In this document: one piece after another, positions 2,518 through 47,752 of the stretch
How the letters are laid out: each line of letters opens with the position of its first letter
Numbering within the stretch: position 1 is the first letter of the stretch
NCBI GenBank assembly: GCA_021847795.1
Contig: JAJZPZ010000006.1
Coordinates: 1-49,916 of the forward strand
Length of the DNA: 49,916 nt
Reading direction: 5' to 3'
Source: Nitrospirota bacterium
GTDB taxonomy: Bacteria; Nitrospirota; Thermodesulfovibrionia; Thermodesulfovibrionales; Dissulfurispiraceae
Position numbers and translations under genes: made by a program
Notes under the pieces: generated by a model
Databases searched by the model: none
The model's input: the letters and a program-made list of their open reading frames with translations, nothing else
Told to the model about the DNA's origin: nothing

Positions 2518-3503
2518 TTAAGGTATCTTTCGGGGTTCTCGGTTAGGCACTTCATGACAGTCCCTCTGTCGAAACCAGCTTCAATCAACAGTTCCGCAGC
2601 TTCAGGAATAGTCAGTGCGCCCCCCAAAAGCCTGCCGTGCATATCAGCCACCCCCTGCCCTTTTGTGAATGGGGTGGTCTCCTTGACGGTATCGGAAATA
2701 ATGATGACCCTGTCGGGATTTTTTGCGCTAAAAATAAGCTCCAGTGTCTTAGGGTGAAGATGATAGGGATCTGCAATGACCTCGATGTAAATATCCTGGT
2801 TCGTGAGCCCGAAGCCGGCAAGCCCGGGTTCCCGGTGATGGAAACTGCGCATTGCATTGAAGATGTGGGTTATCCCTTTTGCCCCGGAGTGAAAGCCCCT
2901 CTCTGCCTCACTAAAGGTCGCATCGGAATGTCCCATGCTCGCAACAATTCCTTTATCTGCCATTTTCCTGATAAGTCCGGCCGCCCCATTCAACTCCGGC
3001 GCAATGGTGATGATCTTCACCATATCTTCAAAGCCCTCTATAAGCTCGCTCAGATGGTATTCGGTGGGCTCAAGAAAGGTCATGGCATTCAGCGATCCGC
3101 ACCTGGAAAAATTCAGGAACGGACCTTCCAGGTGAACACCGAGAATAAATGATGAGTGACGAGTAACCTCTTTAGTAACGAGTAACGAGTTGCGAGTAAC
3201 AAGTAAAGGATCCGAAGACAGTGACAAGTCTTTGTCGTTAGTCTTTAACTCGTTACTCGTTACTTGTAGCTTGTTACTGTCTTTAGTCTTTAACTTGTTA
3301 CTGTCTTTCTGGCGTTCCATGGCCTCTCTGACCATCATCATGTTTTCTCTCATGATCCTGATCTTGGCCGGATATATCGTAGGAATTATCTCTGAAACTC
3401 CCTGTGCCCCCTGTATCCGGGCCATCTCAAGGATATGCTCTGCAACAGTAGTCCTTGTATCATAGCCGTTTATGCCGTGGGTATGAACATCGATGATTTT
3501 CAT
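2502..3503 (-). CDS. nagA: N-acetylglucosamine-6-phosphate deacetylase, with an in-frame repeat insertion
   Basis: The enzyme removes acetate from GlcNAc-6-phosphate in amino-sugar and cell-wall recycling. Amidohydrolase signatures are present in order: DVHTHG at residues 5-10, LEGPF (metal-binding Glu), GHSDAT (His), THIFNAM (His) and IISDTVK (catalytic Asp). The ATG at 3503 is preferred over an upstream in-frame ATG because the protein then begins MKIIDVHTHG. The N-terminal strands of the usual beta-sandwich are missing, so it is shorter than typical NagA even though residues 67-118 are an extra insert encoded by a repeat. All visible catalytic residues survive, so the gene may be functional. 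It overlaps the downstream M48 gene and diverges from the DUF1460 gene. Confidence 0.85.
   Translation of the reverse strand: MKIIDVHTHGINGYDTRTTVAEHILEMARIQGAQGVSEIIPTIYPAKIRIMRENMMMVREAMERQKDSNKLKTKDSNKLQVTSNELKTNDKDLSLSSDPLLVTRNSLLVTKEVTRHSSFILGVHLEGPFLNFSRCGSLNAMTFLEPTEYHLSELIEGFEDMVKIITIAPELNGAAGLIRKMADKGIVASMGHSDATFSEAERGFHSGAKGITHIFNAMRSFHHREPGLAGFGLTNQDIYIEVIADPYHLHPKTLELIFSAKNPDRVIIISDTVKETTPFTKGQGVADMHGRLLGGALTIPEAAELLIEAGFDRGTVMKCLTENPERYLKNSDK
3150..3305. repeat. TAAC/AAGT-rich repeat (family C), copy 2, inside nagA
   Basis: These 156 bases equal 52 codons and interrupt nagA between ...AMERQK and FILGVHLEGPF without breaking the frame. The encoded peptide includes TSNELKTNDKDLSLSSDPLL, which matches the peptide encoded by copy 1 at the start of the M48 protease except for one residue in that segment. 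Confidence 0.9.
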
Positions 3504-7943: not shown

Positions 7944-8092
7944 ATGAGAAATCCCAAATCCGAATATCGAAATCCTAAACAACATCTGAATTCAAAATCC
8001 AAATGCTCCAAACAGGTTCAGAATCCGGGTCATTGGGACTTCGAATTTGTTTCGGATTTAGAGTTTGCCGTTTATTTGGGATTTTCCTTTCC
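7944..8092. repeat. Interspersed AT-rich repeat (family A), copy 1
   Basis: The element starts with AATCC/AAATCC direct blocks, has the centre AAATGCTCCAAACAGGTTC and ends with GAATTTG...GGATTTAGAGTTTG blocks complementary to the start. It lies between rfbC and rfbD. It overlaps the 3' end of rfbC, whose last residues (KENPK) and stop codon come from the repeat. Confidence 0.85.
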
Positions 8093-26958: not shown

Positions 26959-26974
26959 TTATTGATAAATACGG

Positions 26975-27051
26975 GGCGATGGAGTTCGCCGTTAACCGTC
27001 CGGTTCGGACTGATGACTCCTACTCTTAACAGTAAAGGGTAGGAGTTTTTT
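26975..27051 (+). promoter_or_regulatory. Fluoride riboswitch (crcB motif) with terminator, copy 1
   Basis: The aptamer begins GGCGATGGAGTTCGCC (a closed stem-loop), continues GTTAACC, a GTCC/GGAC stem and CTGATGACTCCT, which is the conserved fluoride (crcB) RNA pattern. It is followed by an intrinsic terminator: ACTCCTAC (27016-27023) pairs with GTAGGAGT (27039-27046) and runs into TTTTTT. The ACTCCT segment is shared between aptamer and terminator, so fluoride binding should prevent termination and switch on crcB, 45 bases downstream. Confidence 0.93.
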
Positions 27052-27482: not shown

Positions 27483-28199
27483 ATGGTAACAGAAGGCCCT
27501 GCAAAAAAGCTTACCGTGTACGTGGACGAAGCGGACCATTTCGGGGGGAAGCCGGTCTACGAGGTCTTGCTGGATATCTTTTACAAAAAGAGGATTGCCG
27601 GAGTGAGCGCATTCAGGGGCGTGGCAGGATACGGTACCGACGGGGTTTTCCACACGGCCAAAATGCTCGAACTGTCTACAAGCCTCCCGGTAAAGATTGA
27701 GGCCGTGGATTCCGAGGAGATGATCAACAAAGTGCTGCCCGACGTCTACCATGTGGTGGAAAAGGGGCTTGTCGAGGTGACCGATACGACCATTGTCAAA
27801 AGCCGTCCGATGTCGCTGAAGAAAGAGCAGGAAAAAGGAGAGCATATGAAACTCGAAGGCAAGGCAAAGATGCTCAGGATAATCATAAGTGAAGACGACA
27901 AATGGGAAGGCGAGCCCCTGTACGAGGCGATTGTCAAGAGGCTCATCATGAACGATATTGCCGGGGCGACTGTTTATAAGGCTATCGCGGGCTATGGTCC
28001 GCACAAGAGATATCACAAAAAGAAAACGCTTGCCGTTCACGGGGAATTACCCGTACTTATTACGGTGATGGACACGGAGGAGAGCCTCAACAAAGTCATT
28101 CCCATCCTTGATGATATGGTGAATGAAGGAATAGTCGTACTGTCGGACGTAAATGTCATAAAATATACTCATAGGGATGCAAATCCCGAAACATTCTAA
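27483..28199 (+). CDS. Protein with two fused DUF190 domains
   Basis: DUF190 proteins resemble PII-like ferredoxin-fold signalling proteins and are frequent neighbours of crcB. This 238-residue protein contains two copies: residues about 8-105 (KKLTVYVDEADHFGGKPVYE ... GVAGYGTDG) and about 125-230 (KMLRIIISEDDKWEGEPLYE ... AIAGYGPHK). The two halves are clearly homologous, so it arose by duplication and fusion. Function is not known; a regulatory role for the fluoride channel is inferred from linkage. Translation is likely coupled to crcB. Its stop codon lies only 3 bases before the second riboswitch. Confidence 0.88.
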   Translation: MVTEGPAKKLTVYVDEADHFGGKPVYEVLLDIFYKKRIAGVSAFRGVAGYGTDGVFHTAKMLELSTSLPVKIEAVDSEEMINKVLPDVYHVVEKGLVEVTDTTIVKSRPMSLKKEQEKGEHMKLEGKAKMLRIIISEDDKWEGEPLYEAIVKRLIMNDIAGATVYKAIAGYGPHKRYHKKKTLAVHGELPVLITVMDTEESLNKVIPILDDMVNEGIVVLSDVNVIKYTHRDANPETF

Positions 28200-28202
28200 G
28201 CA

Positions 28203-28282
28203 GGCGATGGAGTTCGCCGTTAACCGTCCGCATCAGGCGGACTGATGACTCCTGCTCTCGGAAGTGAGGGTAGGAGTTTTTT
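28203..28282 (+). promoter_or_regulatory. Fluoride riboswitch with terminator, copy 2, before the dynamin-like gene
   Basis: The first 28 bases of the aptamer are identical to copy 1, then the stem differs in length but keeps pairing (GTCCGC with GCGGAC), and CTGATGACTCCT is again identical. The terminator pairs ACTCCT (28248-28253) with AGGAGT (28272-28277) and ends in TTTTTT. It begins 3 bases after the DUF190 stop codon. No promoter lies between, so transcripts reading through from crcB meet this second fluoride gate. Confidence 0.92.
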
Positions 28283-41748: not shown

Positions 41749-43287
41749 TCAGTGCATCCCCGCAGGAGCGCTGCCTTTGCCTCTCCTCATGATAAGGAGG
41801 AGGGGGAGGATGCAGATCATGATGGCGCTGACTATAAAGAAGGCATCATTAAAAGAGAGCATGGAGGCCTGCCTGATAAGCTGCCGGTAAATATTTCCCA
41901 ATGCCCCATAGTGGGCGGAGGAACTGTCGAATCCCCTGAGCCGGAGCATCTGCGCGCCCTGCTGCGTTGCGATCTGGTATGCCCTGTCAAAAGGCGTCAA
42001 ATGCTCCACAAGGCGTGCCTGATGGAACTGGCTCCGCCTCGCAATAACAGTGGTGACAAAGGCCACTCCGAAGCTGCCCCCGAGGTTTCTCAGGAGATTG
42101 TAAATCGCCGTCGCATTCCCCATATCTTCCTTTTTTATGGTGGAGAGGGTGAGAGTGGTCAGGGGGATAAAGAGAAATCCCATGCCGACCCCGAGCACAA
42201 TCCTCGGCCAGAGCAGGGTGACGAAATCAGCGGAGAGATCAAACCGCGACATCATGTGCGTCGCATAGGCGCATACTATGATCCCGAAGGCCAGAAGCCC
42301 CTTGGGATTGACCTTAGTGACCAGCCTCCCGGCTATAGGCATTGCAAGCAGCGTTGCGATGCCGCCGGGCCCGAGTACCAGCCCCGCAAGGGTTGCGGTG
42401 TATCCCATCAAGGTCTGGAGGTAGATGGGGAGCAGGACGATACTGGCGAAGAGATTAAAAAAGGCAAAGAACATCACGACATTGCCGGTGCTGAAGGAGA
42501 CATTCCTGAATGTCCTGAGGTCGACAACAGGGTGCTCCGCAAAGAGTTCGACGACAACAAAGAGTATCAGGGACACCGCAGAAATGCAGCTCAGCCAGGC
42601 GATGAGGGGCGAAGAGAACCAATTATCCTGCTGCCCCTTGTCGAGGACGATCTGGAGGCAGCCGAGCCCGGTGGCAAGCAGGGCGAGGCCCCAGTAATCT
42701 ATCTTCATCACCTGGCGCTTCATATAGGGCGGGTCAGTGATAAAGAGCATGGCCATGAGGATGGAGATGATGCCTATAGGTATATTGATATAAAAGATCC
42801 AGTGCCATGACCAGTTGTCCGTAATCCATCCCCCGAGCAGGGGCCCGACAATAGGGCCGAACATAATGCCGATCCCGAAGACGGCCATTGCCATGCCGTG
42901 CTGGCGCGGAGGGAAAGATTCGAGGAGGATGGACTGGGAAATGGGCTGCAGCGCGCCGCCGCCGATACCCTGCAGTATCCTGAAGACGATAAGGCTCTGG
43001 AGGTTCCAGGCAGAGCCGCACAGGAAGGAACTGGCGGTAAAAAGGGATATGGAAAAGATCAGGTAGCGTTTTCTGCCGAAGAGCCTGCTCAGCCACCCGG
43101 TAATGGGAATGATGATCGCGTTTGAGACAAGGTAGGAAGTGATCGTCCACGTCGACTCATCGATGCCTGCCGAAAGGCTCCCGCGGATATGGTCGAGCGC
43201 CACATTGACCACGGACGTATCCACGATCTCGATGAGGGTCGGCAGCATGACCGTAAGCGCGATGATCCATTTGCCCCATTTATTCAT
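41749..43287 (-). CDS. emrB: DHA2-family multidrug efflux transporter (EmrB type)
   Basis: The 512-residue protein has 14 predicted membrane segments, as in DHA2 drug:proton antiporters. The block EIVDTSVVNVALDHIRG at residues 22-38 and WLSRLFGRKRYLI (the loop 2-3 signature) are typical of EmrB/QacA. It works with a periplasmic adaptor of the EmrA type and an outer-membrane TolC; both are encoded just upstream on the same strand. The 324-base gap to emrA contains a structured repeat. Substrates cannot be predicted. Confidence 0.9.
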   Translation of the reverse strand: MNKWGKWIIALTVMLPTLIEIVDTSVVNVALDHIRGSLSAGIDESTWTITSYLVSNAIIIPITGWLSRLFGRKRYLIFSISLFTASSFLCGSAWNLQSLIVFRILQGIGGGALQPISQSILLESFPPRQHGMAMAVFGIGIMFGPIVGPLLGGWITDNWSWHWIFYINIPIGIISILMAMLFITDPPYMKRQVMKIDYWGLALLATGLGCLQIVLDKGQQDNWFSSPLIAWLSCISAVSLILFVVVELFAEHPVVDLRTFRNVSFSTGNVVMFFAFFNLFASIVLLPIYLQTLMGYTATLAGLVLGPGGIATLLAMPIAGRLVTKVNPKGLLAFGIIVCAYATHMMSRFDLSADFVTLLWPRIVLGVGMGFLFIPLTTLTLSTIKKEDMGNATAIYNLLRNLGGSFGVAFVTTVIARRSQFHQARLVEHLTPFDRAYQIATQQGAQMLRLRGFDSSSAHYGALGNIYRQLIRQASMLSFNDAFFIVSAIMICILPLLLIMRRGKGSAPAGMH

Positions 43288-43384: not shown

Positions 43385-43556
43385 GGCAGCGGGGCAGGGT
43401 ACGGAAAAGGCTTTCCCTGCGATACCCTGAAGTATTAGCCAACCACCTCTCAAGCCTTACTGAGAAACCACTTCTCCTGCTCTGGAAGAGAATCGTCGCC
43501 AAGTGATGATAATCTCATCGCATTGGAAAGTTTTTTCCGTACCCTGCCCTGCTGCC
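43385..43556. repeat. 172-bp structured element (family B), copy 1
   Basis: The ends are near-perfect inverted repeats: 43385-43408 pairs with 43533-43556 over 24 bases with a single G-U wobble when read as plus-strand RNA. Inner stems CTTTCC/GGAAAG and TGCGAT/ATCGCA extend the hairpin, leaving a conserved central domain with ACCCTGAAGTATT and AATCGTCGCCAAG. Flanking sequence (AATCTAAATCCTAAATC and TTTGGTGCTCATGG...) looks like the halves of a family A repeat, so this copy may be inserted in one. It lies between emrB and emrA. Confidence 0.8.
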
Positions 43557-43611: not shown

Positions 43612-44727
43612 TCATGGTTTTGAATTTGTATCTACAACGACCGTGGGCTCGACAGACATGCCGACCCTCAGCACGTGTCCTGAATCAGTGTCTTTGTCCA
43701 GGAGTATCTTCACCGGCACCCTCTGCACTATTTTCACAAAATTGCCCGTAGCGTTTTCAGGGGGGAAAAGAGAAAACGCCGATCCCGTGCCTGCCATTAT
43801 GCTGTCTACCTTGCCGGTGAATTTCTTGCCGGGGTAGGTGTCGACCCGTATCTCAACGCCCTGCCCTGACCTGATCTTTTTCAGTTGCGTTTCTTTGTAG
43901 TTTGCAACGACCCAGATATCGCCGAGGGTGGTAAGGGCCATGAGAGGCTGGCCCGCCTGTATCTGGTTGCCCCTTTCCACGGATTTCTTGGTAACATAGC
44001 CTTCCGCAGGCGCATAAATCTTCGTGTACCCGGCATTCAGCTCCGCCGCTTCAAGCCGCGCGGCCCTCTGCTTTATGGCTGACTGCTGGGAAAGGCCGGC
44101 AGACTCAGCCTGCCTGATCACCGCCTTCTGCGCTTCAACCGCTGTTTCGGCCTGTTTCACCTGCTCTCCCGCAGCTTTTACCCGTGCAAGAACAACGTCA
44201 TAAGCGGTCTTCGTCTTTTCGTACTTCTCCCGGGAAATCGCATCCTTCCGGAAGAGCGCTTCAGCCCTCTTTGCGTCCCTTTCCGCCTGGCGCGCATCGG
44301 CATCCTGGAGCTCAAGATTAGCCCGCGCAGCTTCAACACCGGCCTTCAGCTCTGCCAGCCGCTTCTTTGCGGTCTCCACCCTTGCTTCATCCTCGGACAG
44401 CTTTGCCTGTTCCTCGCCCAGCGCTGATGCCGCATCTTTTACGCTCACGTCATAGTCAACGGGATCTATCTCAACCAGCAGATCACCTTTTTTCACATGC
44501 TGGTTGTCATCCACATATACCGCTTTTACCGTGCCCTGCACTTTTGCGGCAATCGTATGCACCCTGCCGTCGATAAAAGCGTCGTCAGTCGAGATATGGG
44601 TAGCCTTATATCCCAGGTAAAAATAGAGCGCCATTGCCCCGACCACTGCAACAACGGCGAAAATAACGGCAGCGATCTTTTTCTTGCTGTTTTTCTCTCC
44701 GTTATTTTCCGTCTTAGACTCTTCCAT
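43612..44727 (-). CDS. emrA: HlyD-family periplasmic adaptor (EmrA type)
   Basis: The 371-residue membrane-fusion protein has one N-terminal membrane segment (about residues 17-38), the lipoyl half-motif (STDDAFIDGRVHTIAAKVQG and VDDNQHVKKGDLLVEIDP), a long coiled-coil hairpin (about 95-215) and the second lipoyl and barrel part (YAPAEGYVTKKSVERGNQIQ, EIRVDTYPGKKF). This is the EmrA arrangement, linking the MFS pump to a TolC channel. GGAGGAG lies 6 bases before the ATG. TolC lies 123 bases upstream. Confidence 0.92.
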   Translation of the reverse strand: MEESKTENNGEKNSKKKIAAVIFAVVAVVGAMALYFYLGYKATHISTDDAFIDGRVHTIAAKVQGTVKAVYVDDNQHVKKGDLLVEIDPVDYDVSVKDAASALGEEQAKLSEDEARVETAKKRLAELKAGVEAARANLELQDADARQAERDAKRAEALFRKDAISREKYEKTKTAYDVVLARVKAAGEQVKQAETAVEAQKAVIRQAESAGLSQQSAIKQRAARLEAAELNAGYTKIYAPAEGYVTKKSVERGNQIQAGQPLMALTTLGDIWVVANYKETQLKKIRSGQGVEIRVDTYPGKKFTGKVDSIMAGTGSAFSLFPPENATGNFVKIVQRVPVKILLDKDTDSGHVLRVGMSVEPTVVVDTNSKP

Positions 44728-44850: not shown

Positions 44851-46224
44851 TCATTTCCCGCCCATTGCCCTTTCCAGGCTTGACTGCGCGACTTTGTAGT
44901 CGGAGAGGGCCTGTATATATGCCGTTTTCGCATTGCTGTATGCGACCTGCGCATCAGTCACCTCAATAGGGCTCCCAACGCCTGCTGCATACCTGCCGTT
45001 TGCAATTTCGAGATTCTCCGTTGCCTGCCTGACAGCCAGTTCGGATGTAGGCACCCTGTTTTCGGCCTCCTGCAGGTTCAGGTAGGACTGCTGCACATCG
45101 AGCAGCACATTCTGCCTGAGGAGTTCCTCATTTGCCCTGACGACATCAAGGTTCGACTTTGCCTCCCCGACCTGGTGCTTTGTCAGGAACCCGCTGAAGA
45201 CCGGCATGGATACGGTTGCACCCACGTTCCAGCCTTCATTAAGGGGAAATTTCGACCCGCCCCAGTTGTAAGCGGCATCCCCTGTTACGGTCGGGTAATA
45301 GTTTTTCTTTGCCAGTTCCACAGTCTGCTCCGAGACCTTCCTCCGCGCAGCGAGCGCCTGGATGTCGGGCCTGTTGCTGAATGCCTTTGCGAGCGCGGCG
45401 TCAAAGGTCATGCCGTATTTCCTGAATGCAAGGTCGTCTACAATCGTGTAATCAGGGGCATCGGGCACGCCTATGGCATTGTTCAGGTTCACTGCGGCTA
45501 TTTTCACCGCGTTGCCGGCCCTGATCAGGTTCAGCTTCGCATTGCTCAGATCGACTTCCGCCTTTGTGACATCGAACCGCGGCTTTGTGCCCACCTCATA
45601 AAATCCTTTTGCCTGCTCAAGGTGCTGCTCAAACTGCCCCACTGTTTCGGCAGCGACGTCCCTGTTCTTTTTTGCCTGCAGCAACGAGTAATAGGCCTGT
45701 TTGACATTGAAAACGATCTGTTCCGTTACGTTTTCGAGGTCAGAGCGGGTGGCATCCACATTGAACCGCTGGATACTGACCTGGGTCGAGGTCTTCCCGA
45801 AGTCGTAGATATTCTGCGTCAATTGGGCGCTGCTCGTATATTGATCGAAGGAGCCGCCGCCTGCAGAACCCGATAGTCCGCCTACAGGAGAAATCCTGGA
45901 GTACCCGCCTGATACCGACACCTGCGGAAAGTAGTTGGCCTGGGCCTGTCCGACCCTGCTCCGGGCCGCGTCCACCGTATTCATGGCCGCGATGATATTG
46001 GGCTGCCGCTTTTGCGCTATATCAATGCATTGGGCCAGGCTGAGCGTTTCGCCTTTCTTTATGATCCCCTCGTCCGGCGTTTTTGACACGCCTGCGGCCT
46101 TGGGAAGCCCCTTGCCCGGATTCACAGGAGAAGAATCCTGGGCGCCGGAAACCCCACCCGACAATTGAAAAATCACCAAAGCCGTTACTCCCCAAAATGC
46201 CGCCATACGCATAGATTTCATCAT
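44851..46224 (-). CDS. tolC: TolC family outer-membrane efflux protein
   Basis: The 457-residue protein has a signal peptide (about 28 residues) and the two-fold repeated TolC layout of long helices with barrel strands. Family features are LAQCIDIAQKRQPNIIAAMN near residues 64-83, ITEQIVFNVKQAYYSLLQ, KAEVDLSNAKLNL and, in the second repeat, QQSYLNLQEAENR and EVTDAQVAYSNAKTAYIQA. It sits between the MacB-type ABC transporter and EmrAB and may serve both pumps. It is separated from the upstream permease gene by the second structured repeat. Confidence 0.92.
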   Translation of the reverse strand: MMKSMRMAAFWGVTALVIFQLSGGVSGAQDSSPVNPGKGLPKAAGVSKTPDEGIIKKGETLSLAQCIDIAQKRQPNIIAAMNTVDAARSRVGQAQANYFPQVSVSGGYSRISPVGGLSGSAGGGSFDQYTSSAQLTQNIYDFGKTSTQVSIQRFNVDATRSDLENVTEQIVFNVKQAYYSLLQAKKNRDVAAETVGQFEQHLEQAKGFYEVGTKPRFDVTKAEVDLSNAKLNLIRAGNAVKIAAVNLNNAIGVPDAPDYTIVDDLAFRKYGMTFDAALAKAFSNRPDIQALAARRKVSEQTVELAKKNYYPTVTGDAAYNWGGSKFPLNEGWNVGATVSMPVFSGFLTKHQVGEAKSNLDVVRANEELLRQNVLLDVQQSYLNLQEAENRVPTSELAVRQATENLEIANGRYAAGVGSPIEVTDAQVAYSNAKTAYIQALSDYKVAQSSLERAMGGK

Positions 46225-46291: not shown

Positions 46292-46463
46292 GGCAGCGGG
46301 ACAGGGTACGGGAAAGGCTTTCCGGCGATACCCTGAAGTATTCGCTAACCAGGTCTCTAGCCTTCCTGGGAGGCCTACTTCTCTTCTTCAGAAAGACAAT
46401 CGTCGCCAAGCTGTAATAATCTCATCGCGTTGGAAAGGCTTTCCTGTGCCCTGTCCCGTTGCC
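46292..46463. repeat. 172-bp structured element (family B), copy 2
   Basis: It has exactly the same length as copy 1 and about 75 percent visible identity. The arms 46292-46316 and 46439-46463 pair over 25 bases with three G-U wobbles on the plus strand. Two pairs differ from copy 1 by compensatory changes (GC to AU and AU to GC). The centre shares ACCCTGAAGTATT, CTTCTC, AATCGTCGCCAAG and TAATAATCTC-like segments. It lies between tolC and the MacB permease gene. Confidence 0.8.
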
Positions 46464-46522: not shown

Positions 46523-47752
46523 TCATTCGTACCTCAACGCCTCTATGGGGTCGAGGAGTGACGCCTTGTGGGCCGGGTAGTACCCGAAAAATATCCCGGT
46601 CAGTCCCGAAAAGCTGAAGGACATCAGTATTGACGCTGCCGAGACAATGGTGGGCCAGCCCGCAAGCATCGAGAGCACCTGTGAGCCGGTTATCCCGATA
46701 ATGATCCCGAATATACCGCCGATGAGCGAGAGGATCAGCGCCTCGATGATAAACTGCAGCCTTATGTCCCATGTCTTTGCGCCTATGGCCATGCGTATAC
46801 CTATCTCCCTTGTCCTTTCGGTAACGGAAACGAGCATGATATTCATGATCCCGATTCCCCCGACAAGGAGAGAGACCGAGGCGATGGCGCCCAGGAGCAG
46901 GGTCATCACCTTTGTGGATTGCTCCGCTGCCTGCATCATCTGCGTAAGGTTCCTCACCGAGAAATCATCGTCCTGTTTCTGCCCGATGTGGTGCCTCTGC
47001 CTGAGCAGTTCCGTTATCTGTTTCTCCGCCGGCAAGAGATCGTCGGCCCCCTTTGCCTTCACCATAATGATTCTCACCATTCCAGGAAAGGAGGCGCCGA
47101 AAAGCTTTTTCTGCGCCGTTGTCACCGGGATATAAATAGTATCGTCCTGGTCCTGCCCGTTGGGCGACTGCCCCTTTTCACCGAGCACCCCGATAACGGT
47201 AAAGGGGACGTTCTTTATCCTTATGTTCTGCCCTACCGGGTTTACGCTGCCGAAGAGGTTTTCCACAACCGTCTGCCCCAGGAGGGCCACTTTCGAGGCG
47301 CTTCTGACATCCTCGGCGGTAAAGGACCTTCCGGCGGAAAGGGCCCAATCCCTGACCTCCAGCATGTTGGGGGTGGTCCCTACAACTCCTGTAGACCAGT
47401 TCAGGCTGCCGTAGATGATCTGTGCAACGCCATTGTGGATAGGGGCCACACTCTGCACTGCCGGGCACTCCTTCGGGATCGCCTCCGCATCAGCCATGGA
47501 GAGCGTGGGCTGGGTCCCCATTCCCATCCGCACGCCGCCTGAGGTAGTGGCGCCGGGGAGTATGATCATCAGGTTGCTCCCCATGCTCGATATCTGCGCG
47601 GAGATCCTCTGCCGCGCGCCGGAGCCCACTGCAAGCATGGCAATGACCGCGCCGACACCGATGACGATCCCGAGCATGGTGAGGCCCGACCGCATCTTGT
47701 TGACTTTCAGGGACCGAAGTGAAATCTTTATTGTCGAAGGGATATTAATCAT
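46523..47752 (-). CDS. MacB-type ABC transporter permease
   Basis: The 409-residue protein has an N-terminal membrane segment (about residues 20-42), a large periplasmic domain (about 45-280; MacB core) and three C-terminal membrane segments of the FtsX type, with LLVGGIGIMNIMLVSVTERT and REIGIRMAIGAK. In MacB of Escherichia coli the ATPase and permease are fused; here the ATPase is a separate gene (47900-48592) upstream on the same strand. It exports substrates from the periplasm through MacA and TolC. Confidence 0.92.
   Translation of the reverse strand: MINIPSTIKISLRSLKVNKMRSGLTMLGIVIGVGAVIAMLAVGSGARQRISAQISSMGSNLMIILPGATTSGGVRMGMGTQPTLSMADAEAIPKECPAVQSVAPIHNGVAQIIYGSLNWSTGVVGTTPNMLEVRDWALSAGRSFTAEDVRSASKVALLGQTVVENLFGSVNPVGQNIRIKNVPFTVIGVLGEKGQSPNGQDQDDTIYIPVTTAQKKLFGASFPGMVRIIMVKAKGADDLLPAEKQITELLRQRHHIGQKQDDDFSVRNLTQMMQAAEQSTKVMTLLLGAIASVSLLVGGIGIMNIMLVSVTERTREIGIRMAIGAKTWDIRLQFIIEALILSLIGGIFGIIIGITGSQVLSMLAGWPTIVSAASILMSFSFSGLTGIFFGYYPAHKASLLDPIEALRYE

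Follow-up and report, generated by a model that had tools for sequence, protein, structure and literature searches.

Two hairpin-forming sequences of equal length lie in the gaps of a minus-strand efflux gene cluster (MFS, HlyD, TolC-type, MacB, ABC ATPase and a second HlyD) of a Nitrospirota bacterium, and they raise the question of what kind of element they are and whether they serve the efflux genes in particular. We analyzed the whole 49,916-nt stretch of DNA that carries them, hereafter called the window. The positions of the two copies, their length of 172 nt and the near-perfect hairpin of copy 1, as given by the original prediction, were all reproduced. The copies, the parts of copy 1 and the neighbouring genes are listed below; the bit score is from the covariance model R1, described later, and the gene assignments are from Pfam.

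41749..43287, minus strand: MFS efflux gene, neighbour, with its start codon 97 nt to the left of copy 1
43385..43556, plus strand: element copy 1, the whole hairpin unit (subfamily A; 172 nt; R1 168 bits)
43385..43416, plus strand: 5' arm of copy 1, comprising the outer arm and the AAAGGCTTTCC motif (inverted repeat I14)
43419..43423, plus strand: inner stem P2, 5' strand GCGAT
43424..43516, plus strand: core within the stem of copy 1, A/C-rich and G-poor family-wide
43517..43521, plus strand: inner stem P2, 3' strand ATCGC
43525..43556, plus strand: 3' arm of copy 1 (inverted repeat I14)
43612..44727, minus strand: HlyD-type membrane fusion gene, neighbour, ending 55 nt to the right of copy 1
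44851..46224, minus strand: TolC-type outer membrane efflux gene, neighbour, starting 67 nt to the left of copy 2
46292..46463, plus strand: element copy 2 (subfamily A; 172 nt; orientation as copy 1)
46523..47752, minus strand: MacB-type permease gene, neighbour, ending 59 nt to the right of copy 2

The two copies show 81% identity. In copy 1, the arms (43385-43416 and 43525-43556) have 91% complementarity over 32 nt, and the helix is carried on by the inner stem GCGAT/ATCGC. Its RNA fold was calculated at -91.3 kcal/mol, whereas shuffled sequences averaged -45.4 (z -12.3), and 0 of 200 shuffles reached the value of copy 1. Two base pairs are changed on both sides between the copies, as had been proposed: G-C is replaced by A-U at alignment column 10, and A-U by G-C at column 23. 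The accompanying claim that all deviations in the arms are G-U wobbles on the plus strand held for the transitions (7 G-U and 0 A-C) but not strictly, as there are also two non-wobble mismatches. No target duplication is visible at either window copy, and therefore both are probably old insertions.

The extent of the family was assessed with two covariance models. R1 was built from eight copies of the same genome, themselves obtained by a DNA search of that genome, and R2, a broader model of the core, was built from 25 divergent copies. R1 located approximately 45 places in the own genome, and R2 gave a similar set. When relatives were searched, as the original prediction had suggested, R1 matched 26 of 100 genomes and R2 matched 66 of the 396 genomes in a sample of the phylum, with seven candidates scored per genome. 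The named records recovered by a scan for the core pattern were MAGs of Thermodesulfovibrionales or Nitrospirae, together with one uncultured bacterium. The family is present across the Thermodesulfovibrionales and in a sister order of the class, the copies of which were read, and weak matches in another class hint that its range may perhaps reach beyond the class. A pattern describing the ends of subfamilies A and B gave 0 matches when genomes were scanned with it, copy 1 had no blastn match in the phage and plasmid collections, and the core pattern was without a match in viral contigs. In Rfam 15, no family matched the element above its gathering score, five element loci giving scores far below it. 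The only Rfam matches in the window are two fluoride riboswitches on the plus strand (26966-27029 and 28194-28261; 60 and 57 bits), approximately 1.2 kb apart. Within the open-access literature, no paper on such a Nitrospirota family was found by title or abstract. Protein coding on the minus strand is disfavoured by the stops that reading by eye revealed in the candidate frame of some copies. We conclude that the element is an undescribed, dispersed, non-coding family of hairpin-forming sequences.

A unit is approximately 145-220 bp in length. From the outside inward, it consists of the outer ends, variable arms, CCGAAAAGnCTTT / AAAGGCTTTGAGGC, at which a tandem G.A step is frequent, the stem GCGAy / rTCGC and an A/C-rich core; the conserved inner core reads AAAGnCTTT..GCGAyACCTT / ATCGC..GAAAGGCTTT. 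The outer ends differ between lineages: subfamilies A and B of the own genome have GGYAGYG.., several orders and families share CCTTACAGTTGCATAA..TTATGCAACrTTAAGG, genome G024 has CCTTAAATTGCCGAT and other lineages have CCATAATCCGTAAT. Some copies have no core, or have other repeats in its place. Repeats of the GTAACAAGTAACGAG type are found in the window at 2307-2513 and 3150-3286, and repeats like them replace the core in the copies L075, L014, L098 and L099. Genome G203 contains graded internal deletion derivatives of 48-91 bp (L292-L321) beside full copies of 212-218 bp, and the copy at L071 sits between ends of the subfamily A type, as if nested within another element. A separate dispersed family of inverted repeats, AAATCCTAAATCC / AATTTGTTTAGGATTTGG, occurs in the window at 7949, 9559, 15300, 34715, 41590 and 47765.

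The original prediction further suggested that the hairpins might regulate the efflux operon. On reading, the proteins encoded to the left of the element are varied (n=20), and include DNA ligase, malate dehydrogenase, cysteine synthase and a flagellar protein; Pfam was used for the efflux genes of the window, and the other kinds of neighbour were judged by reading. Given that the neighbours are of many kinds, the element is not efflux-specific: a dedicated efflux regulator was rejected, and a special tie to this operon is unsupported. The antisense position pointed out for the window copies, on the other hand, turned out to be a tendency of the whole family. With gene neighbours called by the longest ORF, the element lies antisense to co-directional genes in 48 cases and sense in 14 (17:2 in the second set alone), the figures in G203 being 10 and 0, and the left gene reads away from the element in 78 of 98 cases. 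Sigma-70-like promoters are not enriched on either strand across the family, and neither such a promoter nor an intrinsic terminator is present at copy 1; on these grounds we rejected both as the role of the element. Replication direction is unsupported as the sole cause of orientation in genome G005, where orientation follows replication weakly (3:2 for strong matches and 7:3 for all matches, by our own reading).

Evidence for mobility comes from target duplications. In the own subfamily B, 8-bp duplications are perfect in 5 of 11 copies and agree at 7 or more of the 8 positions in 9 of 11, compared with a maximum of 6 in a control with mismatched copies; duplications of approximately 8 bp were also recognized by reading in G024. 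Copies with CCTTACAG-type ends show duplications of approximately 4 bp, with identical 4-bp flanks in 7 of 19 against 2.6 expected, which is weaker evidence than that for the 8-bp duplications; one copy is inserted into another element and has TTCA at either end. G203 alone has 275 matches to the left end. Based on the 8-bp or ~4-bp duplications and the unrelated ends, we conclude that this is a MITE-like mobile element that is carried by more than one transposon system. The transposase gene that was to be looked for with other copies did not appear: none was found with the element's ends, such as GGTAGTGTCTCAG or CCTTACAGTTGCATAA, and single ends in the own genome are apparently remnants of truncated copies or sit where a contig stops. 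An IS701-like DDE_5 transposase, which we took to be a possible parent, was rejected because no such gene was found in the 8 genomes searched, which are mostly drafts.

The outer 14-nt arms show a complementarity of 0.80-0.96 within a copy, and the left 14-nt arms of different copies are 0.56-0.70 alike (G030, whose copies are near identical, was left out). Among the eight own copies, 16 of 43 pairs have changed on both sides, and 0 of 500 shuffles scored as high. Among the 25 divergent copies, 20 of 25 pairs have changed on both sides, with a covariation score of 0.491 compared with 0.166 when shuffled and at most 0.129 when the partner was slid. On both of these alignments, A4 and A1, covariation was above all 500 shuffles and collapsed with the partner slid. 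In the arms of 166 copies, G.U occurs 332 times and A.C 67 times; the copies are related, so that these are not independent events, and the safer number is that from the 33 arm clusters, of which 30 favour G.U and 2 favour A.C. Further copies that break the pairing, or whose wobbles favour the minus strand, were sought in this same set, and the plus-strand fold withstood the search. The arms also contain G.A 341 times against C.T 91 times, and tandem GA/AG 69 times. The ratio of G.U to A.C is the same in sense copies (24:5) as in antisense copies (86:19), and the core is A/C-rich, not G/T-rich. Strand composition is therefore an unlikely cause of the G.U excess, and a strand mutational bias behind it is unsupported. 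At orthologous insertions, an assignment based mostly on short flank matches, the identity of the element was 0.84-0.98 compared with 0.53-0.78 for the flanks in six comparisons, and 0.96 compared with 0.93 in a seventh, closer pair. Changes in the arm pairs at these loci are mostly G-U or double changes; in the comparisons at L152, we read the broken pairs as arising at least partly from a 10-nt extension into the flanks. The plus-strand fold looks selected. If a fold is kept by selection while the sequence of its stem has changed almost wholly, this suggests a job for the folded strand. The proposal of a mobile element with a fold under selection, and with the plus strand's fold as the selected one, is thus supported.

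On balance, we lean towards a class-wide family of small, non-autonomous, MITE-like elements with a conserved hairpin domain, the plus strand of which works in folded form, likely as RNA. The element looks to have spread as a MITE and to bear a selected-looking plus-strand fold in addition. Transposases acting in trans would have moved it. After insertion, the plus strand may be transcribed, perhaps through divergent activity of a neighbouring gene's promoter, and would act as a folded RNA with a long stem and, in many copies, the tandem G.A step. The A/C-rich apical core would then be a candidate binding surface for a protein or an RNA. Judging from the sequences, RNA is the likeliest carrier of the plus-strand fold; a role as single-stranded DNA would equally yield a plus-strand G.T bias. 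We also consider, tentatively, that the element may be a portable folded-RNA module, taken up within a bacterial class by several unrelated transposon ends, kept at fixed loci and acting as a multi-copy non-coding RNA in trans or in cis.

It seems unlikely that the plus strand acts instead as folded single-stranded DNA, the substrate of a recombinase or an HUH transposase, by analogy with attC sites and REPs. The element shares with attC sites a preference for one strand and arms that differ but still pair, and of seven genomes searched, five contain Y1 transposase genes. However, the 8-bp and ~4-bp duplications fit the staggered cuts of DDE enzymes, and no Y1 gene was found in the two genomes with the most CCTTACAG ends, G203 and G334. 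In addition, 18 Y1 loci had no clear element copy, with one weak match, in L335; at four of the five own Y1 loci examined, the gene has its own inverted repeats, which are unlike the element's ends; and the weak tracking of replication in G005 also speaks against this role. A RAYT/Y1 partner was rejected, as no association was seen at Y1 loci. Short inverted repeats that begin with GGGGTCAG/TGGGGTCAGG lie on either side of the own-genome Y1 genes L330, L333 and L338; these repeats are similar to GGGGWSAS, a motif reported for TIR-associated tyrosine transposases (PMC3733652).

We find it rather improbable that the element is an ordinary MITE, in which double-stranded DNA alone matters, a transposase binds the arms as terminal inverted repeats and their pairing is a by-product of the need for two like ends. 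The target duplications, the multi-copy dispersal and the recurrence of the CCTTACAGTTGCATAA ends across orders would all be expected of one, but the arms vary between copies of a single genome around a conserved core. Double-stranded recognition also predicts no strand bias, whereas G.U exceeds A.C approximately 5:1 and G.A exceeds C.T nearly 4:1, and the fold is kept at orthologous fixed loci. Neutral correction of the palindrome by template switching between the arms, which would give double changes without selection and agrees with the change of adjacent pairs as a block in subfamily A (columns 14-17), is very doubtful, as it is strand-symmetric and should leave no excess of G.U over A.C, the 30:2 cluster count is already contrary to it, and conservation extends beyond the arms to the core.

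Judged by analogy, the closest known kinds are the YPAL, ERIC, NEMIS and bcr repeats, with REPs more distant; YPAL, ERIC, NEMIS and bcr1 are set apart from the element by their descriptions rather than by sequence comparison. The passages on YPAL (RU-2, the Yersinia palindromic sequence) in PMC2229807 describe a palindromic intergenic repeat of similar size (~168 bp) which, like the element, has target duplications of varying length and a suspected effect on transcripts. The element occurs in other bacteria, and those passages do not describe for YPAL arms that change from copy to copy on a fixed core, or a plus-strand wobble bias. In the same passages, ERIC (RU-1) and NEMIS (Correia) are hairpin MITEs that alter the stability or processing of neighbouring mRNA, ERIC in an orientation-dependent manner (PMC2229807); the element has no TA motif at its ends, and the host groups differ. 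The bcr1-bcr3 repeats are MITE-like, high in copy number and located in UTRs or operon gaps as parts of transcripts (PMC3446304, PMC6542083), but they have a TTTAT motif and are confined to the Bacillus cereus group, whereas the element has 8-bp or ~4-bp duplications and occurs in at least two orders. REPs and REPINs, with their RAYTs, are likewise high-copy extragenic palindromes; REPs measure 20-40 bp and are tagged at one end with GTAG or CGTC (PMC3733652). The element differs from them in size and ends, has no RAYT adjoining its copies and is not one of them. Integron attC sites have conserved AAC...GTT ends and form cassette arrays beside intI, whereas the element has varying ends without this motif and dispersed copies, and on reading is not an attC site.

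MITEs in bacteria are commonly regarded as passengers. In the element described here, one core is combined with different ends and duplication lengths, the stem is rewritten from copy to copy but still pairs, and copies have been retained at orthologous loci. Should the plus-strand RNA prove real, the family would be a large and easily tested group of non-coding RNAs in a class that has received little study, and would clearly exemplify selected single-strand structure borne by a mobile element.
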